The position numbers and the translations under genes were made by a program. The notes under the pieces are model-generated. The model saw nothing but the letters and a program-made list of their open reading frames with translations. It ran no database searches and was not told where the DNA came from. Shown piece after piece: positions 1,983-23,106 of a stretch of DNA of 33,299 nucleotides (position 1 is the first letter of the stretch; each line of letters opens with the position of its first letter). Source of the DNA: Candidatus Didemnitutus sp. (GTDB taxonomy: Bacteria; Verrucomicrobiota; Verrucomicrobiia; Opitutales; Opitutaceae); contig JAMPXH010000036.1 of NCBI GenBank assembly GCA_023701285.1, positions 1 through 33,299 of the forward strand, written 5' to 3'.

Positions 1983-4900
1983 ATGTCACCCCGCCCCGCC
2001 TTCTTTGCGACTCTGCTCGCGCTCGTCCTCCTCGTCGCCACCACCTCGGCCCATGCGGCCGCGACCGATCGCATCCTGCTCGATAACCAGACCGCAGACA
2101 GCCCGCACGTTTTCACGGCCACGGGCGCATGGACCGCGCAGACCGCACCCGCCGGTTTCCACGGCGGCGATTTCCTCGTCGCGGCCGCGGCGGCCGAGAG
2201 CACCGCCGCGCGTTGGCGGCCGAACGTCACGACCGCCGGCTATTACCGGATCTACGCGCGCTGGGCCGCCGCGCCGGATCGCGCCCGCCGCGCACCGCTC
2301 GAAATCAACTACGACGGCGGCGCCAAGACCGACGCGACCCGCACGCTCGACCAAACCATCAATGGCGGCGTGTGGGTGCAGGTCGGCACGTATTTTCTCG
2401 CCGCCGGCACCGGCAACTCCGTCGTCCTGCGCCCGGCGGCCGACGGCACGGTCGCCGCGGACGCGTTCCTGTTCGAACTCTCGCACGCCACGACCGTATC
2501 GCCCACGCAGGCGGCGTCCCTCACGCCGCGCGTAGAGTATGCCAACGCCGACTGGCGCCTCAATCCGCGCCAGGTCGATCTCGTCCGCACCGATTCCGCC
2601 GCCCCCGGCGTCGCGCCCCGCTTCGAACTGCGCGTGGCCGGCGAACCGTTCGAGGTGCGCGGTGCCTGCGGCCACGAAGCCGTCGCCCCCATCGCCGCGG
2701 CCGGCGGCAACACCCTCCGCATCTACAGCGTCAATCCGCTCGGCAACGTCGAGGACTACCTCAAGGCCGCCTCCGACGCCGGGCTCAAGGTCATGCTCGG
2801 GCTCTTCCTCACCGCCGCCGATCCGGGTCCCAACCGCGATTTCTACGAGGACGCAGCGAAGGTCGAGGCGCAGTTCAACGCCTTCAAGGCCCAGATCGAC
2901 GCCTACAAGCACTGCGAAGCGATCCTCGCCTGGTCGATCGGCAACGAGATCGACCCCGCCGACCATCCCAATCCCGCGCCCATCTACCGCGCCATCGACC
3001 AGATCGCCCGCTACATCCAGGACACCGATCACTATCATCCGACCGTCACGTCGCACGCCGCCTCCCATCAGAACAAGATCGCCGGCGTGAAGGCCTGGGC
3101 GCCGCACATCGATATCATCGGCATCAACAGCTACGAGCGGAACATCCCCAACGTTTACTCCAACGTCCTCGCCGCCGGCTGGACCGGCCCCTACCTCATC
3201 ACCGAATTCAGCGTCGAGCCCCCACAGCAGCGCCGGCTCGCCGAGGGCAACATGACCACGTTCGGTTCCGTCATCGAGCTGCCCAGCGCGGAAAAATTCG
3301 TCCGCCTGCCGAAGATCTACCTCGATCACATCCTCGCGCATGACGACCGCTGCCTCGGCTCCTTCGCCTTCAAGGGCGCCAAGGGCGCCTTCCGCATCAC
3401 GCACACGTGGTATCCGCTGCTCGACGAGAATTTCAAACCCACGCCCTCCTACGACGCCATGCGCCTCGCTTGGGGCGGACCGCCCGCCGCGTTCACCGCG
3501 CCGCAGGTCCACTCGATCACCATCAACGGCCGCACGCCGTCGCAGAGCGTCGTGGTCGACGACAACTTCACCGCCGCCGTCACCGTGTCCGCCGATCCCG
3601 GCGCGGAACTGGAATACGTCGTCGAGATCCGCCCCGAGGTTTCCATGTCGTCGAATTATCCGGCGCCGCCGCTCACGCACGTCGTGATCGAGCAGGACGC
3701 GAATGACCCCCGCGTGTTCCATGTCTTCCCGCCGGGCCTCGAGCCCAACACCGTTTACCGGCTCTACTACTACGTCCGCCAGCTCGATGCGTCGGCGCCG
3801 CACGGCTACAATGCCGTGGGCACGGCCAACATCCCGTTCGTCTTTGCCGGCACGGGCGAGGTGAACTTCGCCGGCGAGGTCGTCGCCGAATACCTCTTCG
3901 GCGCGAGCGGCGACTACACCAGCACCGTCACGTCGACGCTCGCCACCGCCGCGCCGCTCATTCCCGCCGCGGGCGGCAACATCACCGGGACGGGCTTCCA
4001 CTATTTCAAAAACAATTCCGACAACGGCATCCCCGAGTCCCTCGCCGCCGCACTCAGCTCGAACCACTACCTCGGCTTCACCGTCACGCCCGGCGCCGCG
4101 CCCGTGGACTTCCAGGGCCTGCGCTTCGAGTTCGGTCTCTCCAACAACACCTCCACGGCGGATCCCTACACCGGCTTCTGGGCGCTGTTCTCCAGCGCCA
4201 CCGGCTTCGCGAGCGCCAACCTGCTCGCCACCGGCAATTTTTCGCAGGCGAAGAGCACCGGCCCCGGCGCCACATGGCAGCAACCGCAAGCCCGCGCCCT
4301 CCTCGCCGATCGCGCCGCCCTGCAAGGCGTCGCCGGGCCCGTCGAATTCCGCCTCTATTTCTGGGACAACTTCGCCACCAGCACGAGCAACGCCATCATG
4401 CGCTTCGACTCGCTCGAACTGCTCGCCACGGGCACGCCGCCCGAACCGCCGGTCATCGCCACCCCGCCCGCCAGCCAGACCGTGGCCGAAGGCGAGTCCG
4501 CCCGCTTCTCCGTCAGCGTGAGCGGCACCGCGCCGTTCACTTATCAATGGCAGAAAGACGGAGCCAATCTCAGCGACGACGCCCGCCTATCCGGCACCGC
4601 GTCGGCCTCCCTTGCCATCAGCGCGACGCTCCCCGCCGACGCCGGCACCTACACCGTCGTCGTCAGCAATGCGGCCGACAGCGCCACCTCCCCCGCGGCC
4701 ACGCTGACCGTCACGCCGCTGCCGCCGACCGATGGCTACGCCGCGTGGCGCTCCGCCGCCTTCACGCCCGATGAACTTGCCGCACCCGCCCTCAGCGGCG
4801 CGCTCGCCGACCCCGATGGCGACGGCTTGGCCAACCTCGTGGAATACGCCCTCGGCCTCGACCCGCGCGTCGCGAGCAACACGAACGTCCCCACCGTAGC

Positions 4901-5117
4901 CGCGAGCGCCAGCGAGTGGACGTTCACCTACACGCGCCCCGCCGACCGCCCCGATCTCACCTACACCCTCGAATACTCGACCAACCTCACCGGTTGGAGC
5001 AGCGAGGGCCTCGTGCCCGAACGCACCGCCACCGGCGAGCGCGAGACCTGGCAGGCCCGCCTCCCGCTCGACACCGGTCCGAACGTGTTCTTCCGCCTCG
5101 CCATCACCCGCCCCTGA
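1983..5117 (+). CDS. Secreted multidomain glycoside hydrolase with golvesin/Xly-type domain and C-terminal tail module
   Basis: This encodes 1044 residues; the start at 1983 opens on a signal peptide (MSPRPAFFATLLALVLLV, cleavage near AHA-AAT). Residues about 27-165 resemble the golvesin/Xly carbohydrate-binding-like domain. Residues about 200-490 look like a GH2-type TIM barrel: the acid/base candidate is Glu322 in AWSIGNEID, the nucleophile candidate Glu408 in YLITEFSVE, a spacing usual for clan GH-A. Next come a fibronectin-like segment (about 500-625), a jelly-roll-like segment (about 630-815), an Ig-like domain (about 818-915, with YQWQKDG and DAGTYTVVVSNAA) and a tail of about 125 residues holding DPDGDGLANLVEYALGLDP and ending FFRLAITRP. 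The tail recurs in two other secreted proteins here. An extracellular beta-glycosidase acting on polysaccharide is likely; the exact substrate cannot be read from the sequence. It is divergent from the FAD oxidoreductase. Confidence 0.8.
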   Translation: MSPRPAFFATLLALVLLVATTSAHAAATDRILLDNQTADSPHVFTATGAWTAQTAPAGFHGGDFLVAAAAAESTAARWRPNVTTAGYYRIYARWAAAPDRARRAPLEINYDGGAKTDATRTLDQTINGGVWVQVGTYFLAAGTGNSVVLRPAADGTVAADAFLFELSHATTVSPTQAASLTPRVEYANADWRLNPRQVDLVRTDSAAPGVAPRFELRVAGEPFEVRGACGHEAVAPIAAAGGNTLRIYSVNPLGNVEDYLKAASDAGLKVMLGLFLTAADPGPNRDFYEDAAKVEAQFNAFKAQIDAYKHCEAILAWSIGNEIDPADHPNPAPIYRAIDQIARYIQDTDHYHPTVTSHAASHQNKIAGVKAWAPHIDIIGINSYERNIPNVYSNVLAAGWTGPYLITEFSVEPPQQRRLAEGNMTTFGSVIELPSAEKFVRLPKIYLDHILAHDDRCLGSFAFKGAKGAFRITHTWYPLLDENFKPTPSYDAMRLAWGGPPAAFTAPQVHSITINGRTPSQSVVVDDNFTAAVTVSADPGAELEYVVEIRPEVSMSSNYPAPPLTHVVIEQDANDPRVFHVFPPGLEPNTVYRLYYYVRQLDASAPHGYNAVGTANIPFVFAGTGEVNFAGEVVAEYLFGASGDYTSTVTSTLATAAPLIPAAGGNITGTGFHYFKNNSDNGIPESLAAALSSNHYLGFTVTPGAAPVDFQGLRFEFGLSNNTSTADPYTGFWALFSSATGFASANLLATGNFSQAKSTGPGATWQQPQARALLADRAALQGVAGPVEFRLYFWDNFATSTSNAIMRFDSLELLATGTPPEPPVIATPPASQTVAEGESARFSVSVSGTAPFTYQWQKDGANLSDDARLSGTASASLAISATLPADAGTYTVVVSNAADSATSPAATLTVTPLPPTDGYAAWRSAAFTPDELAAPALSGALADPDGDGLANLVEYALGLDPRVASNTNVPTVAASASEWTFTYTRPADRPDLTYTLEYSTNLTGWSSEGLVPERTATGERETWQARLPLDTGPNVFFRLAITRP
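4842..4933 (+). repeat. 92-bp near-identical patch of the shared tail module, copy A
   Basis: This stretch codes for part of the C-terminal tail of the glycoside hydrolase. It matches the reverse complement of 15531-15622 in the smaller matrixin gene at 86 of 92 positions by hand alignment, without gaps. Identity drops clearly on both sides, so the patch is much more similar than the flanking tail sequence. Confidence 0.85.
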
Positions 5118-5817: not shown

Positions 5818-8800
5818 TCATGGCACGGTCACCTTCAGGCGGAAGAAGAGCGGGCCGGACGAACGCGGGTGGCGGGCGCGCCACGTGGCCCGGTCGCCTT
5901 CCGTCGCAACCCATTCGTGCGTGACGCCTTCCTCGCTCCATTCCTGCAGATCGGAAGAGATCTCGACGGCGTAGACGATGTCGGTGCGATCCGTCGGCCG
6001 CCTGTAGCTGAACGTCCACACCTCATCGCGCGCTTCGATCTGCGCATCCGATCGCTCATCGGTGGCGAGCGGATCGGTGCCGAGGGCGTATTCGAGCAGG
6101 TTCGACATCCCGTCGCCGTCGGGATCGGCATGCACACCGGCGATGGTATCGTTGCCCGATTGGGCGCGGAACGCCACGGTGCGCCACGACATGCGATTCG
6201 AGTTCACGTTGAAGGAGCGCTCGCTCCACACCGGCGCGTAAAGGCCCGCCCCGTCCTGCACAGCTCGCACGCGCACAAATCCGGCTCCCGTGAGCTGCAG
6301 GGCCCCACCTTCGACGACGGCCGGGCCTTCGATGACCGTGAACGTCACGGGCAGCCCCGAGCTGGCGGAGGCAAGCAACGGAACCGAGGCCGAGGTGAAA
6401 TCAATATCCGGCAACGCGGCGAACGATAGCGTCTGCGGGAGCGGCGTCACCGCCAGCGTCACCGGGAGCGAGGTGGCGCGGCCGGCCGCATTGGTGACCA
6501 CGACATCGTAGATGCCTGCGGTGGTGGCAAGCGCCTGCGGCAAGCGGAGCAACGGCGAGTCCGCACCGGGGATATCCTCTCCCGCTCGGCGCCATTGATA
6601 GCGGGCCGTTTCGTCATCGGACTCGACGTAGAAGGCGACGGCGTTCCCTGCGGTAATGCTGCGACCGAGCGGTTGCACCGTCGCTTGTGGTGCCACCGGC
6701 TTGGAGGGAATTGGCGTGTGGGTGATTCCCGCCACAAACATCCCGTTGCCGGCGATGATGCGTGACGCGGAGACGGCGGGGCCCGCCGACCACGTGGTGC
6801 CATCGGTTGACAACAGGAGTCGGCTGATACCAACGACGGCGAAACGTGTTCCATCGAACGCGACGTCGTCGGTGGATCCGTTGCTTTGCGACGAATACCG
6901 CTCGGTCCATGTGAGGCCGTCCGGCGATGTAGAGATTTTGCCATTCATCGCAGCGACGAAGAGGCCCTTACCAAAGAGAACGCGCCCCGCCCAAACAGAG
7001 ACGGGTGTCCAGTTCACCAGATCGGCGGACGCAAACGCCTTCCACGCTGTGCCGATGACGTAGCGTCCGTTTCCAAACGCGACGCTCGAGAGGTATTCCG
7101 GCTCGCCCACTGAACGCAGGGTCCAGCTCAAGCCATCGGCCGATGTGGCGAACTGTCCCGACCGGCCGAGCGCAAAGAACTGGCCGTTGACCCATTGGAT
7201 ATTCAACAACTCGCCGCTGAATTGCGGGATGGTGCGTGACTGCCACGTTTGCGTATCGGTGGAACTCCAGTAGACACCACTTCCTGAACCATCGATCGCG
7301 AGATAGCGCCCGTTGCCGTAAGTAAAGGCGTTTATTGTCTGTCCGCTGACGCCAGTGGGCATCCGAGTCCAGCGGGCGGCGTTCTCCGAGGTAAATTGCG
7401 CGCGACCGCTCCCCGAAAGCAGGAAGCGCCCGCCACCAAATCCGAGTGCGCCGCCGCCCGAATGCGCCCCGGCACGCAAGTGCCAGTTGTCGCCGTCCAC
7501 CGAAACATGGATCGCGTTTTCGCCGATCGCGACGGCCAAACCGTCGCGGCAGAAGAGCGCGCGCAGGCCCACGCCGGGGGGATTGGCTCGCGTCGTCCAT
7601 TGCTCGCCATCGGTGGAGACGACGTGTTGGCTGCCATCGGTGCCGAGAATATATCGTCCGTGCAGGGCAATCGCTGATTTGAAGCGCAACTCCGGGAGGC
7701 CGGGCACCTGCGCCCATTCCGTGCCGTTTTCCGAGAAGAAGACCAAACCCGGCGTGTCGGTAAACGCGAAGTAGCGGGAGCCGGCCTGAACGACGCGGGT
7801 GAGTGACGTGCTGTTGGAGGGCAGAACCAGATTGGTCCAGGCGAGCCCGTCAGCGGAAAGCATGACGGCGGCCGTCGCTGTTCCGGAGATCATTTGCCCA
7901 CCGACCGCGATAAATCGCGTGCCGTCATGCAGGACGGACGTGATGCCGACTTGGGTGCCGAGAGGTTGGGTCGACCAACTGGTTCCATTTGTCGAGACGA
8001 ACACCGAACCCGTGGTGCCACCCGCGACGAAGCGACCTGCGCCGTATGCCAAGCCGCGACCAAAGGATGTCCCCATGGCGAGCGTCCACGTGGCGCCATC
8101 GATCGAAGTGTAGAAAGACGCCGACCGACGGCCCACATAAAGTCCGTCGGCGAACGCCAGTTCATTGACGCCGGTGTCGCTGCGGGAGAGCACCTGCCAT
8201 TCGATTCCATCGGAGGACCACAGGTTCGGCGTGAGATAGCGGCCGTTCACGAAGAACGTGTTCGCCTCGTCGCCCTTGACCGGCAGCCGTTCCCGCCAAG
8301 GCGTCACGGCCGCGGCGCGACTGTCGACAGAGCCAAACGGGTTGCTCACGCGCACCCAATAGCGCTCCACCGTCCCCACGTGCGTCGGCGTGAAGTAACC
8401 GCCGCCGGTCGCATCGGTGATCGGCGCCGAAACATCGCCGGCCGCGCCGCGATACCACTGGTAGCTGAGTGGAGCGGCGCCCGAGACCGCCACGCTCAAA
8501 TGCGCGGCTTCCCCATGCCGTGTGTCGACGTCCGCCGGCTGGGTGGTGATGGTGGGCGGTGCGCCGATGGACACGGTGACGGTGCCACTGTTGATCGATC
8601 CCGCATCATTGGAAATGCGCACCCAGTATCGCCCCGTCTGCGTGAGCGACGGCGTGGTGAACGCAGCCGAGGTGGCGCCCGCGATCGGTTGCGAAAAATC
8701 GCCGGTGCTGCCGAGGAACCACTGGTAGGTGAGATTCGTGCCGCTCGCCGCCACGGTGAGCGTGGCGGTGCTGCCCGCGGAAATTTGCGCGTTGCCGGGC

Positions 8801-11800
8801 GAGCTGAGCAGTTCCGGCAGGCCAACTCCCGGAGAGCGCAGCCACTGCGCCCCCACGGTCGCCCACGTGGAATCCGCCGCGGAAAACAGTTCCAGTTGGT
8901 CCGACCACTTTTTCTCAAACGTATTCGTCTGCACCTGCCAGGTCAGGCCGTCCAGCGAGACGACCCAATCCGGACCGTAGAGCGCATGGAACATGCCTTG
9001 GTTGTAGGTGAGCGCCGCGATGTATCGATCCGTCGTCAGCGTGCCCGCGGGCAAGCTGCGTTGCGTCCACTGCAGGCCGTCGGTGGAACTCCAAAGCGTG
9101 GACACACTGTCGACTGCGACGAACATGCCGCCACCGGCCGCGACGCGATAAAAATGACGACTCGTCGGCAACGTCCCCTGCGTCCAGTTGATGCCGTCAT
9201 CCGAAACGATCACATGGCCTCCTCCGCCGACGGCGATGAAGCGGCCGTTGCCAAAGGTGAAATGCCGGAGGCCCCGATTGAGGTCGGAATAAACCGGCGT
9301 CCACTCGAGCGCATCGGGGGAGCGATAGATCGAGACGCCGTTGCGGGCATACCACGCGCCGTTCACGTGCAGCATCTGCAAGAATGACCGCTCCACCACG
9401 GAGGGCAGACGCAGAGTCCAGTTCAGGCCGTCCGTTGAGGTGTAGAGCGCGGGCGAGGAATTCGCCTCTCCCCAGACGATGAATCTGCCGTCGCCGTAAG
9501 CCGCCCCGGTGATGTAACGGAGCGGAAATGGCGCGCTCGTCCAGTTGATGCCATCCGCGGAGTTGGCGCGACGTTCCTGCTTGAAGGTGATGAATTGTCC
9601 GCCGCCGTGCACCGCGAGGCCCGCGGCGCCGAAGCCCACCCGTGTTTCCCACGCCAGGCCATCTGCGGACGTCGCGACGGAGGCATAAGGTTCGAAATAG
9701 GGCGTCTTGACCGCCAAAAACATGCCGTTGCCGTAACCGAGGCCGCTGACGCGCGAGAAGTAGGGGCTGGCCGGTGCCTGCCAATTGATCCCGTCCACCG
9801 ATGTGCGGAAGTCCGCGGAGAGGAAGCGACCGCCCCCGAACGCAAGTGAATCCACGGAGACGGGCGTGTTCGTGAAAACCGGCGCCGCCCAGTTGAGGCC
9901 ATCCGCAGAGGTCAACACGTAGGCGGGAGCACCGCTGTATTGCGAAGTTCCGAACGCGACGAAGCTCCCGCCGATGAAGCGCACCTGGAGCAGCGTCGAA
10001 AACGCGTAGCTCGGGTTCGACGACACCAGCGAGAACGCACCCTTGGTCCAGTTGATGCCGTCGACGGAGGTGTAGATGCGCGGAGGGCCGGCTTGCGTGT
10101 TGCCAACCGCCACGAAGCGTCCGGCACCGAACGCGACGCTCAACAGTCGCGCATGCTCAACCCCAACCAGCACCGGGCGCCACGACCAGTCAACCCCGTC
10201 AGTCGAGGCCAGCACCTTGTTATCGGCGCCCACGAAAACGGTCGTCCCGTTGCCACGCGCCACCGCCAACAGCGCGTCATAGCTTTCCGGACCATCGGAG
10301 GGTCGCAACTGCGTCCATGTCCGACCATCGACGGACGCGACCACCACCCCGCCCCGACCGGCGGCGACAAACCGGGTCCCGTCATGAAACACGGAACGCA
10401 GCACCATATCCACCGGCAGCGACGCCGCGTGCCAGTCGACGCCATTATCCGAATACCCGGCGCGCGCGCCCACGATGACATGCCGGCCATTGCCGTAAGC
10501 CGTCGCAAACATCTCGGCCGCGCCGAAGGTCGGATCGACCAACTTCCAGCTTCCGGCGACGAGCGAGCGACTGTCGGCGGCCAGCGTCCCTGAGGAAACG
10601 CGCACCCAATAGCTGTCGAGTTGCTCGCGATACGGGACGGTCACCGAGGACGCGGTGGCCCCGCTCACGGGCACCGCGGTGTCCCCCGAACTGCCGCGGA
10701 ACCACTGATAACTGAAGGGCCCGGCCCCGGAGGCACTCACTGTGAGTGTGACCTGTTTACCGTCGGCGCTCACCACGGCGGCCCGGTTGGTCACGAAAAA
10801 ATCAACGACGCTGACGGTGGCGGCGTTGGAGATGATCTCTCCAAATTCGTTACTGGCGCGCACGGAATAGCTTCCCGCCGTGCTCGCATCGATACCACGA
10901 ACCGTGAGGGAGGCAGACGCGGAGCCGGAAATGCCCGGTCCATCGACCAGATCGACGCCATTGCGCATCCAACGGTAGGACGTCGCACCACTCGCCCCCA
11001 CCGCGAGCATGACCGTTTCGCCGGCGATCACGCCTTGACTGGTGGGCTGCAGATAAAGGGTCGGCGGCAGCGGGCGCGTCAGGGCGACACTATGGCTGCC
11101 GCCCGCCGCGATGGCGTGCACATTCCCGACTGCGGCAGGCACGGTCGCCTGTCCTGCGCCGTTCGCCCCGAATGCGGCCACCGTGCCGTGGCGAGTCAGT
11201 GCCAGCCCATGCCCGGACCCGGCGGCGACCGCGTCGACATTTGCGAGATTGGCCGGAATGGACAGCGCCACTCCCTTGGACAGCACCGTGCCCAGCGGCG
11301 TGGACCACACGGTGAAATTCTCGCCCGCCGCGATGGTCGCGTAAACGCCGGCCGGGTCGAGGGTGCTTTGGCCGTGACTGTTGGAACCCCACGCGATCGC
11401 CGCATTGTCCGTCAACGCCACCGTATGCGTCGGCCCGGCATCGACGTAACGATAGAAACGCGAACCCGCGGGCACCGTGGATTGACCCTGTTCATTCCCG
11501 CCCCAGGCGACGATCGAGCCATCGCTCTTCAGCGCCACGCTGTGTGCACCTCCCGCCGCGATCCAAACGACGTCGGTCAAGTTGAGCGGAACGCTGGCTT
11601 GTCCCGCATGATTATTGCCCCACGCCACCACCCGCCCCGCCGCGGTCAGCGCCAGACTGTGAGAACCTCCGGCCGATACCTGCACAACACTCGACAGGTC
11701 CTCGGGCACGGTCGTCTGGCCAAACTCATTGCGTCCCCACGCGAGGACGGTGCCGTCGCCCCGCACCGCCAACGTGTGATCCGTCCCGGCGTCCACGCCC

Positions 11801-14568
11801 GACAAATCCAGGGTGCCGGTCGGGGCCGACTGCTGGCCATGGGTGTTGGAGCCCCACACCGCGATGCGACTCGGCACCCCGACGTGCACATAGAATACGC
11901 TGCGCGACGTGCCTGCGGAGTTGGTTGCCGTGACTTCGTATCGCCCGCGCTCGGCGAGGGAGACATTCGTCAGCGAAAGCGTGGCACCGGCAGCCGGAAG
12001 GACCTGGCCGTTGCGCCGCCACTCGAACGCGGTCGCGCCCGTGGCGGCCGCGGTGAGCGTCAGGCTCGAACCCGCGTTCACGCTGCGGCTGGTCGGGCGG
12101 GTGGTGAATTCCGGCGGCAGCGAGATCCCCACCTCGATGCCGCGCGACTGCTTGGTCCCAGCCACGTTCGTCACCACCACATCATAAGTCCCGGCGTCCG
12201 CCGCCCCGACCGAGGCAACCCGCAAACTGCGCGTGCTCGCACCGGAAACACGAGCTCCATCCTGGAGCTCCACGCCATTTCTCCGCCAGCGGAATGCCGG
12301 CGTCGGCACGCCCACCGCCGCAACGTCCAGCACAAGCGATTCGCCAAGGTGGAGCACTCGATTGGCCGGCTCGGAGGTGATCAGCGGCGCCACCGGTGAA
12401 ACCAGCACGAGCGTGCCGCCGCCGGCACCGACCGCCGCGCGCGCCGTCGTGAACCACGACGGAGGATTCAACTGCCCGTAGAAATTATGCCCCCACAGCC
12501 GCAAGGAGCCGTCAGCCGCGAGCGCCATGCTGTGCGAATCACCGGCCGAAACCGCAGCCGCCGGTTTCGCCGCGATCGGCACGGCCGTTTGCCCCGAATA
12601 GTTCATGCCCCATGCGACCACGTCGTCATCGGCGCGCCGCGCCACCAAATGATGCGTGCCGCTGGCCAGCGCCACCACGCGACTGAGTTCGGGCGGCGGC
12701 AGGATGCTTTCGTAATTGATATTTTGTCCCCACGTCGAGACGCCGCCATCGCCGCGCAACGCCGCGCTATGATCTTGTCCGGCCGCGACTGCCACCACGT
12801 CGCGCAATGCCGCCGGCACGCTTGTCTGCCCCCAGGGGTTTTGCCCCCACGCCACCACGGAGCCATCCGACTTCACCGCGAGGCAATGCCCTCCCCCGGT
12901 CGCAATCGCAATGACGTCCGTCAAGCCAGCCGGCGCCCCCAACGACCCGCTGCCCCACACCACCACGGTGCCATCACGCTGGAGCGCCATGGCCGTCGCT
13001 CCTTGCGCGGCAATTGCGACGACGTTCGTCAAGCCGGCCGGAGGAGCGGCCGCTCCGAGCTGACTGCCGCCCCACCCCGCCACCGTGCCATCCGGCTTGA
13101 GCGCGATCGTGAAACCGGCGCCGCCGGCCATCGCCACGACGGGGAAAAGTCCCGCCGGCGATTCCACCTGACCGACGCTGTTGTTGCCCCAGCCGCCCAA
13201 CGCCAGGCCCGGCTCATGCACGTGCAGATGAAAATACGAGCGCGCCACCCCGCTCGCGTTCGACACGGCGACCTCGTAATAGCCGCGGTCGTTGAGGCTC
13301 ACGTTCGCAAGCGCCAGGCTCCCGCCCGTGGCACCGGGGATCGGCTGGCCGTTGCGGCTCCACTGGAAGGCCAGCGGCGCACTGCCCGTGGCCGTAGCCG
13401 TGAATGTCGCCGCACCGCCGACCATCACCGCCTCGGTGCGCGGGCGCACCGTGAATTGCGGCGGAGGTGGAGCACTGGGATTCGGCACCAGGGACAGCGC
13501 CAGACGCACCACGCCCCACTCGCCGTTGTGCCCATCGACCGCGAAATGATAAACGCGCCCGCTCACGACATTGATCGATAACGCGCTCGTGCGCGTCGCC
13601 GCGGAAGCATCGTCGTTACTCGCGAGCTGCGTGAGCGCGTTCACGGAGGTGCCGCTGTAGGCGGCGAGCACCGTGTCGAAATGCGAACCCTCGGTGCTCA
13701 CGGTCGCGGTGCCGGTCGCCGGCGCCGTCCAGCGCCACCAAGCCGACGCGCCAGCGCCGAGCCCGGACACGTGAGTCGGTTCGCCCGGCTCGTGCGAGGC
13801 GCCGACGGTCGTGCTGTTCACCACCACGCTATTGCCCTGCAACAAGACCAGCGGCACCGCATCGATGAAGGCATCGTGGCGCGGAGGGGCGAAGCCGCCA
13901 GGCTTGCCGTAGAGCAATTGCGCCCCGTCGATGTCGTCTTGCTGCACCGCCGCGACATCGCCCGCGATGCTGTTCATCAGCGCCACCACGGTCTGGCCGG
14001 CTTGGTCGGGGTGCGCGAGGCCGAGAACGTGGCCGAGTTCGTGCACGGCCACACGCCGGATATCGACAGGCGAACTGAGGCTGCCGCGATAGGAATTCCA
14101 GGCATACGCGGTGTTGAACAGGATGTCCGCCTGGGTGCGCCGATAGGAGCCATCGGCACGCGGCTGGGTGCTGCGGTAGGAGATCGTGACGGCGAGCACA
14201 TGCTCGCCGAACGCCTCGGAACCCGGTTCGTTGCTGTAGAGACGCGAATCGAACGCGATTTCGTTGAGCCCATTCGCGCTGCCCGCCGGGCCGGGCGCGG
14301 TGACTTGCGCGGTAAATTGCAACCTCGCGAGGTGCGCACCCCATGCACTGGCCGCCGCTTGCACGCTGGTGGCGTAGGTGCTGCCGTCATCCAGAAACGG
14401 CGTGTTCGGCATTTTGATGATCAACGGCACCGTGCCGTCATCCCACGTGATGCGCGCTCCGTCCGGGCCGCGGATGAGATCGTAGGCGCGGAGCGGGAGC
14501 ACGAAGAACACGCCGACGAGGAGCGCCGGCATTGCCCGGAAGAGCTGGGCGATTTTACTTCTGGGCAT
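5818..14568 (-). CDS. Giant secreted matrixin-like metalloprotease with RCC1 and BNR-like repeat blocks
   Basis: This is one unbroken frame of 2916 codons. Residues 1-28 are a signal peptide (cleavage near LRA-YD). The metzincin zinc site is HELGHVLGLAH at 176-186, with a Met-turn at Met198 (ALMNS). Residues about 255-360 form a PPC-like beta domain (SAWWRWTAP ... YHFAVDG). After an Ig-like domain come RCC1-type repeats (about 454-718, seven WG motifs), two Ig-like domains, more RCC1 repeats (about 898-1169, six clear plus one degenerate), two Ig-like domains, a BNR-like block (about 1340-1910, thirteen S.DG..W motifs), two Ig-like domains, a second BNR-like block (about 2097-2625, thirteen motifs), an Ig-like domain, an MBG-like domain and the shared tail ending FFRLKVTVP. 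The start overlaps the end of the upstream small gene by 14 bp. It is probably an extracellular or surface protease with adhesive propellers; its substrate is unknown. Confidence 0.85.
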   Translation of the reverse strand: MPRSKIAQLFRAMPALLVGVFFVLPLRAYDLIRGPDGARITWDDGTVPLIIKMPNTPFLDDGSTYATSVQAAASAWGAHLARLQFTAQVTAPGPAGSANGLNEIAFDSRLYSNEPGSEAFGEHVLAVTISYRSTQPRADGSYRRTQADILFNTAYAWNSYRGSLSSPVDIRRVAVHELGHVLGLAHPDQAGQTVVALMNSIAGDVAAVQQDDIDGAQLLYGKPGGFAPPRHDAFIDAVPLVLLQGNSVVVNSTTVGASHEPGEPTHVSGLGAGASAWWRWTAPATGTATVSTEGSHFDTVLAAYSGTSVNALTQLASNDDASAATRTSALSINVVSGRVYHFAVDGHNGEWGVVRLALSLVPNPSAPPPPQFTVRPRTEAVMVGGAATFTATATGSAPLAFQWSRNGQPIPGATGGSLALANVSLNDRGYYEVAVSNASGVARSYFHLHVHEPGLALGGWGNNSVGQVESPAGLFPVVAMAGGAGFTIALKPDGTVAGWGGSQLGAAAPPAGLTNVVAIAAQGATAMALQRDGTVVVWGSGSLGAPAGLTDVIAIATGGGHCLAVKSDGSVVAWGQNPWGQTSVPAALRDVVAVAAGQDHSAALRGDGGVSTWGQNINYESILPPPELSRVVALASGTHHLVARRADDDVVAWGMNYSGQTAVPIAAKPAAAVSAGDSHSMALAADGSLRLWGHNFYGQLNPPSWFTTARAAVGAGGGTLVLVSPVAPLITSEPANRVLHLGESLVLDVAAVGVPTPAFRWRRNGVELQDGARVSGASTRSLRVASVGAADAGTYDVVVTNVAGTKQSRGIEVGISLPPEFTTRPTSRSVNAGSSLTLTAAATGATAFEWRRNGQVLPAAGATLSLTNVSLAERGRYEVTATNSAGTSRSVFYVHVGVPSRIAVWGSNTHGQQSAPTGTLDLSGVDAGTDHTLAVRGDGTVLAWGRNEFGQTTVPEDLSSVVQVSAGGSHSLALTAAGRVVAWGNNHAGQASVPLNLTDVVWIAAGGAHSVALKSDGSIVAWGGNEQGQSTVPAGSRFYRYVDAGPTHTVALTDNAAIAWGSNSHGQSTLDPAGVYATIAAGENFTVWSTPLGTVLSKGVALSIPANLANVDAVAAGSGHGLALTRHGTVAAFGANGAGQATVPAAVGNVHAIAAGGSHSVALTRPLPPTLYLQPTSQGVIAGETVMLAVGASGATSYRWMRNGVDLVDGPGISGSASASLTVRGIDASTAGSYSVRASNEFGEIISNAATVSVVDFFVTNRAAVVSADGKQVTLTVSASGAGPFSYQWFRGSSGDTAVPVSGATASSVTVPYREQLDSYWVRVSSGTLAADSRSLVAGSWKLVDPTFGAAEMFATAYGNGRHVIVGARAGYSDNGVDWHAASLPVDMVLRSVFHDGTRFVAAGRGGVVVASVDGRTWTQLRPSDGPESYDALLAVARGNGTTVFVGADNKVLASTDGVDWSWRPVLVGVEHARLLSVAFGAGRFVAVGNTQAGPPRIYTSVDGINWTKGAFSLVSSNPSYAFSTLLQVRFIGGSFVAFGTSQYSGAPAYVLTSADGLNWAAPVFTNTPVSVDSLAFGGGRFLSADFRTSVDGINWQAPASPYFSRVSGLGYGNGMFLAVKTPYFEPYASVATSADGLAWETRVGFGAAGLAVHGGGQFITFKQERRANSADGINWTSAPFPLRYITGAAYGDGRFIVWGEANSSPALYTSTDGLNWTLRLPSVVERSFLQMLHVNGAWYARNGVSIYRSPDALEWTPVYSDLNRGLRHFTFGNGRFIAVGGGGHVIVSDDGINWTQGTLPTSRHFYRVAAGGGMFVAVDSVSTLWSSTDGLQWTQRSLPAGTLTTDRYIAALTYNQGMFHALYGPDWVVSLDGLTWQVQTNTFEKKWSDQLELFSAADSTWATVGAQWLRSPGVGLPELLSSPGNAQISAGSTATLTVAASGTNLTYQWFLGSTGDFSQPIAGATSAAFTTPSLTQTGRYWVRISNDAGSINSGTVTVSIGAPPTITTQPADVDTRHGEAAHLSVAVSGAAPLSYQWYRGAAGDVSAPITDATGGGYFTPTHVGTVERYWVRVSNPFGSVDSRAAAVTPWRERLPVKGDEANTFFVNGRYLTPNLWSSDGIEWQVLSRSDTGVNELAFADGLYVGRRSASFYTSIDGATWTLAMGTSFGRGLAYGAGRFVAGGTTGSVFVSTNGTSWSTQPLGTQVGITSVLHDGTRFIAVGGQMISGTATAAVMLSADGLAWTNLVLPSNSTSLTRVVQAGSRYFAFTDTPGLVFFSENGTEWAQVPGLPELRFKSAIALHGRYILGTDGSQHVVSTDGEQWTTRANPPGVGLRALFCRDGLAVAIGENAIHVSVDGDNWHLRAGAHSGGGALGFGGGRFLLSGSGRAQFTSENAARWTRMPTGVSGQTINAFTYGNGRYLAIDGSGSGVYWSSTDTQTWQSRTIPQFSGELLNIQWVNGQFFALGRSGQFATSADGLSWTLRSVGEPEYLSSVAFGNGRYVIGTAWKAFASADLVNWTPVSVWAGRVLFGKGLFVAAMNGKISTSPDGLTWTERYSSQSNGSTDDVAFDGTRFAVVGISRLLLSTDGTTWSAGPAVSASRIIAGNGMFVAGITHTPIPSKPVAPQATVQPLGRSITAGNAVAFYVESDDETARYQWRRAGEDIPGADSPLLRLPQALATTAGIYDVVVTNAAGRATSLPVTLAVTPLPQTLSFAALPDIDFTSASVPLLASASSGLPVTFTVIEGPAVVEGGALQLTGAGFVRVRAVQDGAGLYAPVWSERSFNVNSNRMSWRTVAFRAQSGNDTIAGVHADPDGDGMSNLLEYALGTDPLATDERSDAQIEARDEVWTFSYRRPTDRTDIVYAVEISSDLQEWSEEGVTHEWVATEGDRATWRARHPRSSGPLFFRLKVTVP

Positions 14569-15190
14569 GGTCGGCCGCCTCCTGGCGCGTCTGCTTGATC
14601 TGCTGGATGAAAGCGGCGGGCGTGAGCGCGTCGCTCGTGCGTCTCACGTTTTTCTGCACCCGGGCGGCGCCGCCTTGCGCGAGCGGGAGCACGACCTCGG
14701 CCACATCGGCCATCGGCACGTCATTGCTGCGGGCGATGTATTCGCGGCCGGCGGCGTCCTTCTTGATCGGGTAGCGCCCGTGCATCACCGCGTAGAGCGG
14801 GTAGAAATTCCGGCCGTTGCCGTGCACGAACAACACGTCCTCGTCGCCGACCTTGAACTCCGGCACGCCTTCGACGCGCATCTCGTCTCCGTTCGGCGCC
14901 TTGCCGCCGAGCAGGCGCAGCTCGACCGTGGCGGGCGGCTGGCCGGCGATCGTCTCCAGCACCTCCAGCTGCACGTAGGTGTGCACCCACGGCCGGCCGT
15001 TGCGCTCCGTCGCCGCGTAACGGATGCCCGTGACCTTCGCGCGCACGATGTAGTCGGAGCCGTTGACGAGCTGCTCGAAGGGCGGCGGCTGCACCGTCGT
15101 GGCCAGCAACGGTCCGAGCAGGACGCAGAACAGGAGCAGGTGGCAAATCGCGGCGGGCCGCAGCGGGAAGCGGAGTCGGGACGGAGTCAT
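14555..15190 (-). CDS. Small secreted partner protein of the large matrixin (family not named)
   Basis: This 211-residue protein has a signal peptide (hydrophobic core AICHLLLFCVLLGPLL, mature start near ATTVQPPPFE). The mature part has no motif of a known enzyme that I recognise. It is clearly homologous to the 219-residue protein at 17784-18443: shared signatures are TTV.PP.FE..V...D.IVRA.VT, ETIAG.PP, LLGG, FYP.YAVMHGRYP, GREY..RSN and DALTPAAF. Both are encoded directly upstream of a matrixin-like protease and overlap its start. I recall proteins of this type beside matrixins in other bacteria, but cannot verify this here. A role as chaperone, propeptide-like factor, inhibitor or partner subunit is possible; none is shown by the sequence. 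The hairpins before it suggest it may start its own transcript. Confidence 0.75.
   Translation of the reverse strand: MTPSRLRFPLRPAAICHLLLFCVLLGPLLATTVQPPPFEQLVNGSDYIVRAKVTGIRYAATERNGRPWVHTYVQLEVLETIAGQPPATVELRLLGGKAPNGDEMRVEGVPEFKVGDEDVLFVHGNGRNFYPLYAVMHGRYPIKKDAAGREYIARSNDVPMADVAEVVLPLAQGGAARVQKNVRRTSDALTPAAFIQQIKQTRQEAADHAQK
14578..14583 (-). promoter_or_regulatory. Strong Shine-Dalgarno deciding the large matrixin start
   Basis: AGGAGG on the minus strand lies nine bases before the ATG at 14568 and inside the coding sequence of the upstream small protein. It fixes the start codon and suggests the two genes are translationally coupled. Confidence 0.75.
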
Positions 15191-15250
15191 GTGGCAGGGC
15201 GACCTGGCGCAGGAAGTCCGCGCAAGGTCAGGAAGGTGTTGGGTTCGACG

Positions 15251-15269
15251 CTGACGGAGACTCCGTCAG
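15251..15269. other. Perfect hairpin between the two matrixin units
   Basis: CTGACGGA and TCCGTCAG form a perfect 8-bp stem around a three-base loop in the 159-bp gap between the smaller matrixin stop (15350) and the next small-protein start (15190). No T-tract follows on the minus strand. It may be a terminator without a U-tract, a processing site or a regulator site. Confidence 0.4.
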
Positions 15270-15322
15270 GCCCATGCGCCGAAGTTGCACCCACGCTACG
15301 CGCGATTCGCGGCGAGGCACAA

Positions 15323-15346
15323 GCCCGCACCGCGTGTCGCGCGGGC
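15323..15346 (-). terminator. Possible terminator hairpin after the smaller matrixin
   Basis: GCCCGC and GCGGGC can pair (eight pairs counting one G-T wobble and one inner pair) starting three bases after the stop at 15350. Only two T follow on the minus strand, so termination would be inefficient. Confidence 0.3.
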
Positions 15347-15349
15347 AAT

Positions 15350-17794
15350 TCACGGGCGCTCGACGAGCAAGCGGAAGAACAACGGGCTGGTGAGCGCGCG
15401 GGTGGCCGTCCAGGTTTCGCGCCCGGCGGCGCTCGCGGTGCGGACGTGCGTGATGCCGGCATCGTCCCAAGTCGCGAGGTCGGCGGAGGCCTGCACCACG
15501 TAGGTGAGGTCGCTGCGGTCGGCGAGGCGGGTGTAGGTGAAGGTCCACTCGTTGGCACTCGCGGCTACGGTCGGGACGTTCGCGTTGCTCGCGACGCGCG
15601 GATCGAGGCCGAGGGCGTATTCGAGCAGGTTGTTCAACCCGTCGCCGTCGGGATCGGCGGCGGGGCCGCTGATCGCAGGGTTCTCGAGTTCCCCGTCCGT
15701 GAAGTGCTCGAGTTGCCAGGAGGTGAAGCCGGCGAGAACCGTGAAGCTGCGTTCGACGGGCGCGGCCGCGCTGCGGTTGGCATCGCCGGCCTGGGTCGCG
15801 CGCACGGTGACCGTGCCGGCGCCGGTAAGCGTGAGCGTGGCACCCTGCAAATCCGCCGGGCCGTCGACGAGCGTGAAGCTCACGGGCAGGCCGGAGCTGG
15901 CCGTGGCGGACAGCGCGATCGGTGCGCTGCTGAACGCGCGGTCGGCGAGCGGGGCGAACGTGATCGTCTGGCCCGCTGGCGCGATGACGAGCGTGCCGTT
16001 GGCCGAGCCGCTGTAATTCGGATCGGTGACGGTCGCGACGACGGCGTAGCTGCCGGCGTTGGTCGGCGCCGTGCCGCTGCCGGCGTAGGTGACGCTGGTT
16101 GCGAGGCCGGCGGGGTTGGTGACCACGCTGACGGATTTCGCCGCGCCATCGTAGGTGGCGGAGAGGTTGCCGAGCTGGATCGTAGCCGGCGCGGGCGCGG
16201 CCGTGATGTCGCGCACGACGTCCGCCGCGGGGGAGAACTGCGCGTTGCCGGCCTGCGAGGCGCGCACGCGCACGGTGCCGACGCCGGTGAGGGTGAGTTG
16301 CGCGCCGTTCAGCTGCGCCGGGCCCGAATCGAGCGAGAACGACACCGGCAGACCGGAGCTGGCCACCGCGTTGAGGGTGAGCGGGACGGAGCCGTAAACG
16401 AGGCTGGCCGGCGGTTGGAAGACGATGCTCTGCGTGGCTTGGTTGACCGTGAGCGTCGCGGCCGCGGAGGTGGTGTTGCCGAGCGCGTTGCTCACGACGA
16501 CGTCGTAGGAACCGGCGTCGGCGAGCGTGACGGCGTTGAGGGTGTAGCTCGACGCGGTGGCGCCGGGGATGGCCGTGCCGCCTTTGCGCCACTGATAACT
16601 GACGGTGCTGCTGGTCGCATCCTTGCCGTAGGCGGCGACCGTGAAGGTGGTGCTCGCACCGCCATTGACGGTGCGATGGGTGGGCGCGGTAACGACGACG
16701 GGCGCGGAGGTGAGTTCGAGATTGAAGAAGAGGGAGCCTTGCTCAGCGGCCCAGCCATCCACGGCAAAATGATACGTGGTGCCGGCCGTGACGGCGATCG
16801 TGACGATGCTGGTGCGGATGCGCTGCGATTCGTCGGGCACGCTGCCGGGCGGCTGCTCGTCGTCGTTGCTGGCGAGCTGGGTGAGCGCGCCGACGGCGGA
16901 ACCGGTGTAGGCAGCGAGCATGGTGTCGCAGGCGCTGTCGCGTGTGGTGACCTTGAGCGAGCCGCTGGCAGGCGCGGTCCATTTCCACCAGACGGAGGAG
17001 CCGCCGGGCTCGTTGGCGTGGTGGTAGGGTTCGCCCGGTTGCTTGAAGGCATGCACGTTGGTGCCGGCGTAGCGTCCGGTCGGCTCGCTGAGCGTGACCG
17101 GCGTGGCGTTGGCGAACAGATCGTTGACCGGCGCGGTGACGGATCCGGCCGTGCCGTAGAGCGACTGACCGCCGGAAATGTCGTCGGTCTGGAGGGCGTC
17201 CACGTCGCTGACGATGCTGTTCATGATCGCCGTTATGCTCTGTCCGGCCTCATCGGGATGATCCAGACCCAGCACGTGGCCAAACTCGTGGATCGCCACG
17301 CGGCGGATGTCCTGCTGCGAACGCCGCACACCGCGATAAGAATCCCACCAGATGCTTTGGTTGAAGATGACGTCAGCCTCGGCGATCACGTAGGTGTTAT
17401 CGTCGCGCTGATAATAGGGCAGCGTCAGCGTGACCGCGAGGGTGCCGCTGCTGAAAGCATCGCCGTAGATCGTGTTGCTGAAGAAGACCTCGGTGGTCCC
17501 GTTCTCCTCCTCGCCCACGCCGGCTGCTTGGATCTCGGGCAAAAACTGGACGCGCCCGAGCACGGAATTCCAGTCGACCATGGCCTGCTGCACGCTCGTG
17601 GCATAGGTGGTGCCGTCGCGCAGGGTGGAGGTCGGCGCCGGCACCCGGATGCGCATCATGATGCTGCCAGGGTTCCACGCGCCGGTCGGCCCGCCTTCCG
17701 GATAATTGATCAGATCGTAGGCCTGGGCCGCACCGGGCGCCAACAACGCCAACAGACCGAGAAACACGAAGTGCAGGGGCGACTTACTTTTCAT
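15350..17794 (-). CDS. Secreted matrixin-like metalloprotease with Ig/MBG domains and C-terminal tail module
   Basis: This encodes 814 residues. The ATG at 17794 follows an AAGGAG Shine-Dalgarno and opens on a signal peptide (LHFVFLGLLALLAPGAAQA). The metzincin zinc site is HEFGHVLGLDH at 169-179, with Met-turn Met191 (AIMNS), as in matrixins. Residues about 264-358 form the same PPC-like domain as in the larger paralogue (VWWKWTAPASG ... YHFAVDG). Residues about 361-451 are Ig-like, about 452-690 hold MBG-type repeats (LSATYDGAAKSV, APTNAGSYAVVATVTD, and two copies of ASSGLPVSF), and about 691-814 are the shared tail (DPDGDGLNNLLEYALGLDP to FFRLLVERP). The first 350 residues align throughout with the 2916-aa paralogue, including FGHVLGL.HPD.AGQ, so the two arose by duplication. 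The start overlaps the stop of the upstream small secreted protein by 11 bp. Extracellular protease; substrate unknown. Confidence 0.85.
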   Translation of the reverse strand: MKSKSPLHFVFLGLLALLAPGAAQAYDLINYPEGGPTGAWNPGSIMMRIRVPAPTSTLRDGTTYATSVQQAMVDWNSVLGRVQFLPEIQAAGVGEEENGTTEVFFSNTIYGDAFSSGTLAVTLTLPYYQRDDNTYVIAEADVIFNQSIWWDSYRGVRRSQQDIRRVAIHEFGHVLGLDHPDEAGQSITAIMNSIVSDVDALQTDDISGGQSLYGTAGSVTAPVNDLFANATPVTLSEPTGRYAGTNVHAFKQPGEPYHHANEPGGSSVWWKWTAPASGSLKVTTRDSACDTMLAAYTGSAVGALTQLASNDDEQPPGSVPDESQRIRTSIVTIAVTAGTTYHFAVDGWAAEQGSLFFNLELTSAPVVVTAPTHRTVNGGASTTFTVAAYGKDATSSTVSYQWRKGGTAIPGATASSYTLNAVTLADAGSYDVVVSNALGNTTSAAATLTVNQATQSIVFQPPASLVYGSVPLTLNAVASSGLPVSFSLDSGPAQLNGAQLTLTGVGTVRVRASQAGNAQFSPAADVVRDITAAPAPATIQLGNLSATYDGAAKSVSVVTNPAGLATSVTYAGSGTAPTNAGSYAVVATVTDPNYSGSANGTLVIAPAGQTITFAPLADRAFSSAPIALSATASSGLPVSFTLVDGPADLQGATLTLTGAGTVTVRATQAGDANRSAAAPVERSFTVLAGFTSWQLEHFTDGELENPAISGPAADPDGDGLNNLLEYALGLDPRVASNANVPTVAASANEWTFTYTRLADRSDLTYVVQASADLATWDDAGITHVRTASAAGRETWTATRALTSPLFFRLLVERP
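15531..15622 (-). repeat. 92-bp near-identical patch of the shared tail module, copy B
   Basis: This is the counterpart of 4842-4933, matching at 86 of 92 bases on the opposite strand. It encodes ALGLDPRVASN and EWTFTYTR in the tail of the smaller matrixin. Confidence 0.85.
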
Positions 17795-18443
17795 TGCGCG
17801 CTCCTTCCCGGATGTTGCCGCGCAATTCACGGATCTTGGTCGTGAACGCGGCGGGCGTGAGCGCGTCATTCACGGAGCGCGCCCGGCGCTGCAATCCGGC
17901 CGCCGCGCCTTCCGGCATCGGCGTCGCGATCTCGGCGGTGTCGGTCAGCGGCACGCCGTTGCTGCGCGTGAGGTATTCGCGGCCGGTGGCCTTGTCACGG
18001 CGCACTGGGTAACGGCCGTGCATGACTGCGTAGGTCGGGTAGAAGGCCTTGCCGTTGTCCTTCACGAAGAAAATCTCCTCCTGACCGACGGTGAACGTCG
18101 GCACGCCGGCCACGTGCAACTCGCGGTCGCCCACGCGTCCGCCGAGGAGCGTCAACACCAGCGGAGTGGGCGGCTCGCCGGCGATCGTCTCGATGACGTC
18201 GAGCGTCACGCGCGTGCGGATGACGGTCTTCTTCCCCCGCAGTTCCTCGTAGCTCGACACCTCGGTCACCCGCGCGCGCACGATGCAGTCCGCGCCGTCG
18301 ACCATCTCCTCGAAGGTGGGCGGCAGCACGGTGGTGGCTTGCACTACGGGCACGGCGCACAGCGCCAGAGCGATCATCGACATCAGCCCGCGCCACGACA
18401 GCCTGCCGCGCGTCGGTCCGGACAAAACAAGGGACTTGCTCAT
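17784..18443 (-). CDS. Small secreted partner protein of the smaller matrixin (family not named)
   Basis: This encodes 219 residues from the ATG at 18443, which places a short basic N-terminus before a signal peptide core (LMSMIALALCAVPVVQA) and a mature start near TTVLPPTFEE. It is the paralogue of the protein at 14555-15190, similar along the whole length, with an identical YAVMHGRYP block and the same C-terminal DALTPAAF element. No catalytic motif is recognised. Its last codons overlap the start of the smaller matrixin by 11 bp, and that protease's Shine-Dalgarno lies inside this gene, so the pair is probably coupled in translation. It is the first gene of the run of four (17784-18443 back to 5818), and the 136-bp gap before it probably holds the promoter, though I see no clear -35/-10. 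A longer frame to 18527 exists but would spoil the signal peptide. Confidence 0.75.
   Translation of the reverse strand: MSKSLVLSGPTRGRLSWRGLMSMIALALCAVPVVQATTVLPPTFEEMVDGADCIVRARVTEVSSYEELRGKKTVIRTRVTLDVIETIAGEPPTPLVLTLLGGRVGDRELHVAGVPTFTVGQEEIFFVKDNGKAFYPTYAVMHGRYPVRRDKATGREYLTRSNGVPLTDTAEIATPMPEGAAAGLQRRARSVNDALTPAAFTTKIRELRGNIREGARNEK
17801..17806 (-). promoter_or_regulatory. Shine-Dalgarno deciding the smaller matrixin start
   Basis: AAGGAG on the minus strand stands six bases before the ATG at 17794, within the end of the upstream small gene. It supports this start over the in-frame ATG at 17869. Confidence 0.7.
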
Positions 18444-21629: not shown

Positions 21630-21661
21630 ACGCGCCCGCCCGCGCCATCCCCTCCGCCCCC

Positions 21662-23086
21662 ATGCACGTCCATCACAGCGAAGACCACCGCCAGTGGAGT
21701 CTCGACCAGGAGGTCCGCCTCTTCGGCCTCGACGTCCCCCAGATCAGCCGCCGCGACGCACTCCGTCTCGGCCTGCTCGGCGCCGCCGGTCTGCTCGTCA
21801 ACCGCTACGCACCCCGCGCCCTCGCCTCCTCCGCCCCGTTGGCCGCGCCCGCCGTCAGCGCCTCCCCGCTCGTCCCGCGCGCGAAGTCCGTCATCCAGAT
21901 CTGGCTCTGGGGCGGCCCCTGCCACCTCGACACCTTCGATCCCAAGCCCGACGCCGGCGACGATTACTCCGGCCCGCTCCGCTCGCCCCTCGCCACCAAC
22001 GTCGACGGCATCCGCATCGGCGAACTTCTCCCCGAGCTCGCCAAGCACGCCGACAAATACGCGCTCATCCGCAGCATGAGCCACGGCATCAACGGCCACG
22101 AGACCGCCGCCTACACCGTGCAGACCGGCCGCGCCTCCGGCGGCCGCGACGTCTTCCCCGGCGCCGGCGCCGTCGTGTCGCTCTTCAAGGGCTACGACGC
22201 CGGCTACCGCGGCCTGCTCCCGCCCTACATCGTGCTCACGGAGTTGCAGGGCCGGTTCTCCGAGGCCGGTTTCCTCGGTGCGCGCTACAAGCCCTTCGCC
22301 ACCGGCGGCGATCCCGGCGCCAACCAGTTCCTCGTCGAGGGCGTCGTCGCCAAGGGCATGAGCGACCAGCGGCAGCGCGACCGCCGCGACCTGCTCCACA
22401 AGCTCAACACCCTCCAGCACGCCGCCCGCAGCGGCGACCCGCGCCTCGCCGCCCTCGCCCAGTGCGAAGGCGAGGCCTACGAGATGATCCTCGGCGACGC
22501 CGGCAAGGTCTTCGACCTCGCGCAGGAGAAGGACGCCCTCCGCGACCGCTATGGCCGCAACACCTTCGGCCAGTCCTGCCTCATGGCGCGCCGCCTCGTC
22601 GAGCGCGGCGTCCCCTACATCACCATCAACTACCGCGGCTGGGACACCCACAAGCAGCACTTCCCCATCATGCGGCGCAAGCTGCCCGAGTTTGACCGCG
22701 GCCTCGCCACGCTGCTCGAGGACCTCTCCCAACGCGGCCTGCTCGACAGCACCGTCGTCTGGGCCGGCGGCGAATTCGGCCGCACGCCGAAGATCCTCTG
22801 GGAAGCCCCGTGGAACGGCGGCCGCAACCACTTCGGCGCGGCCTTCTCCACGCTCGTCGCCGGCGGCGGCTTCAAGGGCGGCCACGTCCTCGGCGCCACC
22901 GACAAGCGCGGCGAGACCGTCACCGAGCGTCCCGTGCATCCGTCCGACCTCATCGGCAGCGTTTATGAACTGATGGGCATCGACCCCGAGGCCCGCCTGC
23001 CGCACCCCGAGGGCCGTGACGTCCGCGCCATGCCGGCTGCGATCGACGGCGGCCAGCGCCGCACCCGCCTCAGCGAAATCATGTGA
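21662..23086 (+). CDS. DUF1501 family protein with Tat-type signal
   Basis: This encodes 474 residues from the ATG at 21662. The N-terminus carries a twin-arginine motif (SRRDALRLG, Arg30-Arg31) before a hydrophobic stretch (LLGAAGLLV), so export by Tat is likely. The DUF1501 signatures are present in order: IQIWLWGGPCHLDTFDPKP, LRSPLATNVDGIRIGELLP, SMSHGINGHETAAYTVQTGR, INYRGWDTHKQHF, VVWAGGEFGRTPKI, WNGGRNHFGAAFSTLVAGGG and VHPSDLIGSVYELMGID. DUF1501 belongs to the alkaline phosphatase/sulfatase-like fold group, but its activity is not established. The length is normal for the family. It lies between the DUF1549/DUF1553 gene and the PPC-domain gene; its stop overlaps an alternative GTG start of the latter, which suggests coupled expression. 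Confidence 0.9.
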   Translation: MHVHHSEDHRQWSLDQEVRLFGLDVPQISRRDALRLGLLGAAGLLVNRYAPRALASSAPLAAPAVSASPLVPRAKSVIQIWLWGGPCHLDTFDPKPDAGDDYSGPLRSPLATNVDGIRIGELLPELAKHADKYALIRSMSHGINGHETAAYTVQTGRASGGRDVFPGAGAVVSLFKGYDAGYRGLLPPYIVLTELQGRFSEAGFLGARYKPFATGGDPGANQFLVEGVVAKGMSDQRQRDRRDLLHKLNTLQHAARSGDPRLAALAQCEGEAYEMILGDAGKVFDLAQEKDALRDRYGRNTFGQSCLMARRLVERGVPYITINYRGWDTHKQHFPIMRRKLPEFDRGLATLLEDLSQRGLLDSTVVWAGGEFGRTPKILWEAPWNGGRNHFGAAFSTLVAGGGFKGGHVLGATDKRGETVTERPVHPSDLIGSVYELMGIDPEARLPHPEGRDVRAMPAAIDGGQRRTRLSEIM

Positions 23087-23106
23087 ACCCGTCCCGCCAC
23101 CCTCAC

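Follow-up and report, generated by a model that had tools for sequence, protein, structure and literature searches.

Candidate TIMP-like partners encoded directly before, or fused to, secreted matrixins in Opitutaceae and other environmental bacteria

The window analysed here, the whole stretch of 33,299 nucleotides, is one contig of an Opitutaceae genome whose closest sampled congener is a Candidatus Didemnitutus MAG. A preliminary description recognised four minus-strand genes forming two units, each a small exported partner followed by a metzincin protease, and all of the coordinates have been verified. In unit A the open reading frame of partner A, predicted by an AlphaFold2 model to be TIMP-like, encodes 219 aa from the ATG at 18443 (17784..18443). 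Removal of the signal peptide (18336-18443) leaves a mature protein beginning T-T-V-L-P-P from 18335, and these residues, T1-T2-V3-L4-P5-P6 (18318..18335), form the predicted inhibitory N-terminus, as judged by conservation and by the register of the TIMP N-terminus. The Shine-Dalgarno sequence of protease A, GGGAAGGAG (17801..17809), lies within the partner A gene, and the two genes overlap by 11 nt (17784..17794), as in translational coupling. The matrixin protease A (814 aa, 15350..17794) has a signal peptide at 17720-17794, a mature N-terminus, Y-D-L-I, at 17719, and the zinc site HEFGHVLGLDH at 17258..17290.

Unit B, on the same strand, is built in the same way. The open reading frame of partner B (14555..15190) encodes a TIMP-like protein of 211 aa that is 47% identical to partner A (E 4e-55); the blocks YAVMHGRYP and DALTPAAF are common to both, and the proposed homology of the two partners is thereby upheld. 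The signal peptide spans 15101-15190 and the mature protein begins T-T-V-Q-P-P from 15100. The Shine-Dalgarno sequence of protease B, AGGAGG (14578..14583), again lies inside the partner gene and the overlap, at 14555..14568, is 14 nt; both overlaps and both internal Shine-Dalgarno sequences were confirmed in the sequence. Matrixin protease B is a protein of 2916 aa (5818..14568) with a signal peptide at 14485-14568, the same mature N-terminus, Y-D-L-I, at 14484, and the zinc site HELGHVLGLAH at 14011..14043.

The HE.GHVLGL.H site and the Met-turn (AIMNS in A, ALMNS in B) are present in both proteases, as had been described. With a complete HExxHxxGxxH motif, a Met-turn, and Pfam Peptidase_M10 (PF00413) scores of 42.6 bits for protease A and 41.9 bits for protease B, above the cut-off of 24 bits, both window proteases qualify as matrixins. 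NCBIfam gave only sub-threshold matches for the proteases, to MXAN_2677_2678 and metallo_LGF. A PPC-like domain had also been reported for both, but it can be discerned by eye only, and Pfam reports PPC in neither. Behind the catalytic domain, protease A carries this PPC-like region, Ig domains and MBG_3 domains (MBG_3 E 3.5e-29), and protease B carries Ig domains, RCC1 repeats, DUF6242-like stretches and a TSP3-like C-terminus. The giant protease B has ten RCC1-type repeats (RCC1_2 x10) and at least seven Ig domains (Ig_3 x7) within its 2916 aa.

A prodomain with a cysteine switch (PRCGxPD) was sought in the proteases and is absent; the catalytic domain directly follows the signal peptide. 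No cysteine precedes the zinc site in either window protease or in most of their relatives. Among relatives, 63 of 64 matrixins start, once mature, with Tyr or Phe, and activated MMPs (MMP-1, -3, -7, -8) begin at about the place where these mature matrixins begin. Since there is no prodomain and mostly no cysteine before the site, no latency device is seen in cis in these enzymes, and an inhibitor made together with them would supply one. The mature Y-D of the window proteases recalls the Asp-switch of karilysin, which was considered and set aside because the Asp is not general among relatives; an Asp-switch in the window proteases would not exclude a separate inhibitor.

The genome contains three M10 matches and three partner matches, and these are paired in all three cases; the third pair lies on contig C46, outside the window. 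This third pair and the recurrence of a protease start at -11 nt in dozens of relatives indicate that the arrangement of partner and protease is not due to chance. The third matrixin (L006:6-1553, contig C46) ends in a Gly-rich, hydrophobic and Arg-containing tail (GGGGGGGAPSLWALAALVAASALRAWQRQRG) that, unlike the C-termini of both window proteases, looks like a surface-sorting signal.

The frequency with which partner homologues lie upstream of matrixin genes was determined more widely. Genome contigs were scanned with a nine-sequence alignment, the wide one being too diverse for this purpose. Among 57 relatives, an M10 match lies directly downstream on the same strand for 39 of 40 partner matches; 39 of 51 M10 matches have a partner, the unpaired ones being mostly weak partial matches. 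A set of 76 partner records from Verrucomicrobiota and a few other phyla has a reading frame with HExxHxxGxx[HD] just downstream in 70, a variant zinc motif in 3 more and the protease upstream in one, and the chance frequency of the motif is about 0.5-1% per 700-nt window. Most commonly the protease starts 11 nt before the end of the partner stop codon, and next most often 4 or 14 nt before it. Matches to the partner profile were found in 100 of 247 genomes of Acidobacteriota and 82 of 199 of Planctomycetota, and matches to a separate profile, A4, in 10 of 274 of Gammaproteobacteria. The protease gene immediately follows the partner in 18 of 20 planctomycetal and 9 of 10 gammaproteobacterial loci; for lower-scoring standalone acidobacterial matches it is downstream in 14 of 20, plus one upstream, and in Acidobacteriota overall about 70-90% of partner homologues directly precede metzincin genes. 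Pairing therefore prevails in four phyla, and the homologues do not lie mostly away from metzincins. The reversed order, protease upstream of partner, was seen only in L059 and L219, and six partners (L056, L058, L202, L206, L207 and L214) are apparent orphans with no metzincin nearby. Viral contigs were also scanned for the partner, and no relative was confirmed.

In Acidobacteriota, partner and protease also occur as one chain. Forty-five such fusions were found, with the order signal peptide, partner domain, matrixin domain, and the HExxH usually falls 310-380 residues after the mature N-terminus. Nearly all acidobacterial matches in long reading frames are one polypeptide (20/20 newly fetched loci; 22/23 records). 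Natural fusion is strong evidence that partner and matrixin act together. The evolutionary distances of partners and proteases are correlated (mirror-tree r 0.75, permutation maximum 0.28), partly as a result of species phylogeny. Taken together, the pairing in four phyla, the fusions and the mirror-tree correlation strongly support the earlier proposal of a joint function for partner and protease. In many environmental bacteria, it appears, each MMP-like secreted protease is directly preceded by, or fused to, a small partner predicted to resemble the human MMP inhibitors, the TIMPs, in structure and action.

The two units had been interpreted as a tandem duplication. The duplication stands as an old event, not a recent one. 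Partner B shares 60% identity with a homologue from another species but 47-49% with partner A, and it groups with that homologue rather than with partner A (support 88); the same tandem is found in a sister genome (G012), and from this grouping and this tandem the window units are judged to be old paralogues. Two planctomycetal loci, L225 and L234, each contain two partner-metzincin units in tandem, and tandem units thus recur outside Opitutaceae.

Partners A and B have no match in Pfam and nothing above threshold in NCBIfam, where partner B has a sub-threshold match only, to the LIC_20196 exoprotein; the partner represents a large family absent from both collections. Searches of the PDB by sequence, single and profile, gave no match to any chain at E 10. 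An AlphaFold2 model built from 65 mature partners has a pLDDT of 94.8 and a pTM of 0.89, and when it was compared with the PDB by Foldseek, ranks 1-22 were all TIMP-1, TIMP-2, agrin NtA or PCOLCE NTR. The best of these is TIMP-2 (E 1.8e-4), and the TM-scores of the top matches are about 0.3-0.5. By VIA, the best match is N-TIMP-3 bound to TACE (116 residues), with a Z of 8.2, a modest value for a small beta barrel; model residues 2..174 are aligned on residues 2..121 of the N-TIMP-3 chain, so that the alignment begins at residue 2 of both. In these predicted models the partner has a TIMP/NTR fold and begins in register with the TIMP N-terminus. A fold search of BFVD with the partner gave no match at E 0.001, and potempin A is not among the fold matches listed for it, which excludes nothing.

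The gapless likeness of the partner N-terminus to that of TIMPs was recorded before any structure model was made. With signal peptide cleavage sites read by eye from the sequence, the mature N-terminus follows the pattern A-x-A|T-[TS]-V-x-P-P-x-F...[SA]-D-Y-[IV]-V-R-A. In percentages that come from mutually related sequences, residue 2 is Thr or Ser in 61/63 two-gene partners, in 34/45 fusions and in about half of the planctomycetal loci; V3 and P6 are near invariant among partners, and residue 20 is Arg in 52 of 62. A 24-column N-terminal profile aligned best with TIMP-2 and TIMP-3 at offset 0 within +/-6 (p 3.7e-4 and 1.2e-4, respectively, against shuffles). The only match given by hhalign, with a TIMP profile of 3 sequences, was a weak one that placed columns 10-27 on TIMP 10-27 (P 0.008). 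Mature partners usually have no disulfides to stiffen the N-terminus, 38 of 62 having no cysteine and 20 having one. The N-terminal wedge is unrecognisable in the A4 clade of Pseudomonadota and weak in Planctomycetota. Proteins L105-L111, from Pseudomonadota and some Planctomycetota, have no T-[TS]-V start and carry a long extra C-terminal region; several of their mature N-termini look like A-H-x-P, features that possibly represent a different route to zinc.

A fusion of 402 residues, L169, was modelled with a pLDDT of 90.6 and a pTM of 0.90, the latter giving confidence in how the two domains are placed relative to each other. One half of the model finds its matches among MMPs (Z up to 11.7), the other among TIMP/NtA. 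In this model residues 2-4 are a beta strand; their counterparts in the model of the lone partner, a different sequence, are coil. In one alignment row, with pro-karilysin (4r3v), residue 1 of the model was aligned to propeptide residue 23, and in some rows with other MMPs different parts of the partner domain are attached; 165 residues align with karilysin bearing its propeptide versus 157 with karilysin without it. The model suggests that the N-terminus of the partner may lie in the protease cleft.

In animal TIMPs, residue 2 (Ser or Thr) enters the S1' pocket (PMC3679795, PMC3779175) and R20 is conserved (PMC3679795). TIMPs (PF00965, MEROPS I35) have in common with the partner an NTR/OB fold, predicted for the latter, and a free N-terminus after the signal peptide. 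In the same numbering they also have in common Ser or Thr at residue 2, Pro5, and A/S15-D16-x-[V/I]-[V/I]-R20-A21. TIMPs target an M10 matrixin, as the partner presumably does. Unlike TIMPs, the partner has T-[TS]-V instead of CxC and almost no cysteines, and the disulfides Cys1-Cys70 and Cys3-Cys99 are absent. It is a single NTR domain with C-terminal helices of its own, and it is bacterial, in an operon with the protease or fused to it. Further, PF00965 gave no match at E<=1 to 65 members of the partner family. Since neither CxC nor a Pfam match was found, the partner is classed as a protein that would work like a TIMP and is not a member of the TIMP family. That the family is nevertheless a true ancient relative of TIMPs, and that a bacterial TIMP-MMP system exists as coupled pairs and self-inhibited matrixins in ~40% of the sampled genomes of Acidobacteriota and Planctomycetota, is a tentative proposal that we think rather doubtful.

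There are bacterial precedents for such pairs. According to a 2021 study of Listeria monocytogenes (PMC8235301), the metzincin Mtz occurs with a TIMP-like lipoprotein, Tim, for which the authors could find no TIMP-like counterpart from bacteria in the earlier literature. Like the units described here, Mtz/Tim consists of a secreted metzincin and a TIMP-like protein encoded adjacently. In contrast, Tim is a lipoprotein encoded after the protease, and the partner is encoded before it and has no lipobox; the locus is phage-derived, the likeness of Tim to TIMPs comes from structure prediction only, and about 50 of its N-terminal residues are cleaved off. An N-terminal TIMP register for Tim is not described in the passages of PMC8235301 that were consulted.

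In Tannerella forsythia each of the KLIKK proteases is preceded by a small lipoprotein (PMC4404884), and a later paper calls these lipoproteins potempins, inhibitors cognate to the proteases (PMC7296668). Structures of PotA with karilysin and with human MMP-12 are in the PDB (8b2q, 8b2n). Potempins and the partner are both small exported proteins encoded directly upstream of a secreted protease, a matrixin in the case of PotA and karilysin; the partner has this gene order, and the protease is its probable target. Potempins are outer-membrane lipoproteins with a lipobox Cys at +1, whereas in the partner A-x-A is followed by T/L/I/V/M, not Cys; to judge from its sequence, the partner carries no lipid and exposes a free T-[TS]-V N-terminus. 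The absence of a lipobox, the TIMP-register N-terminus and the scale of the family set it apart from both Tim and the potempins. AprA/AprI (Pfam Inh) of Pseudomonas also includes a co-encoded metzincin inhibitor, but the target is a serralysin. The fold of AprI is a lipocalin-like barrel, unlike that of the partner. AprI binds zinc through its N-terminal amine, according to literature cited in PMC8235301.

We propose, with a probability of about 0.72, that each unit is an operon in which a TIMP-like inhibitor is produced just ahead of a matrixin that would otherwise be active. The preliminary description had offered a chaperone, an inhibitor, a propeptide-like factor or a subunit; the evidence singles out the inhibitor, of a TIMP type not named there. 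The small partner would leave the cytoplasm through Sec, and signal peptidase would cleave it behind A-x-A, thereby freeing the N-terminus T1-[T/S]2-V3-x-P-P on a netrin-like (NTR/OB) domain. By analogy with animal TIMPs, this N-terminus would insert into the active-site cleft of the downstream matrixin. There the amino and carbonyl groups of residue 1 would chelate the catalytic zinc, and residue 2 would occupy S1'. The matrixin, having neither prodomain nor cysteine switch, would be exposed in its mature form once its signal peptide is removed, which would explain why synthesis of the inhibitor comes first and is coupled in amount to that of the protease. The coupled inhibitor would keep the matrixin silent through export and storage, and in many Acidobacteriota partner and matrixin would form one self-inhibited chain.

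The absence of a prodomain from the protease, the matched production that translational coupling yields and the prodomain-like position of the partner in the fusions would also suit a dedicated chaperone or secretion/folding factor, comparable to the intramolecular chaperones that propeptides are, which assists the large matrixin in folding in the periplasm and for which inhibition is not needed. OB folds like that of CsaA do appear in the Foldseek list, but far down, with TIMP/NTR folds ranked above everything else, and a chaperone would have no need of so strong a conservation of the very N-terminus, T/S at residue 2 included; we regard this role as unlikely. The same N-terminus bears on the idea of the partner as a positive cofactor or a targeting subunit that binds substrate or matrix and steers the protease, as NTR domains also do in PCOLCE and agrin NtA, both of which are among the fold matches. 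A conserved free N-terminus with T/S2 straight after the signal peptide is a feature of TIMPs, and in the fusion model the N-terminal residues form a strand and align with the propeptide position, so that such a cofactor appears improbable, still more so than a chaperone.

It has been proposed for Listeria Tim that the protein is a substrate and its released fragment the effector; Tim is cut by Mtz there, and together they act on the cell wall (PMC8235301). A similar fate for the partner is very unlikely, given that it has no lipobox and no long cleavable linker and that the NTR core begins immediately behind the signal peptide.

Inhibitors of the TIMP type have been treated as an animal invention, and the pairing of partner and matrixin has hardly been recorded in bacteria until now. 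If the partner is such an inhibitor, the silencing of bacterial matrixins without prodomains would be explained, hundreds of natural inhibitor-protease pairs would become available for studies of specificity, along with new disulfide-free scaffolds for MMP inhibitors, and the origin of TIMPs would become testable; a true ancient relative of TIMPs might itself reveal that origin. Elsewhere in the window, on the plus strand, 1785-5117 encodes a protein with Golvesin_C, a GH72-like stretch and an Ig domain, and the gene for a DUF1501 protein (21587-23086) is overlapped by the next gene, which encodes a PPC-domain protein (23083-25377).
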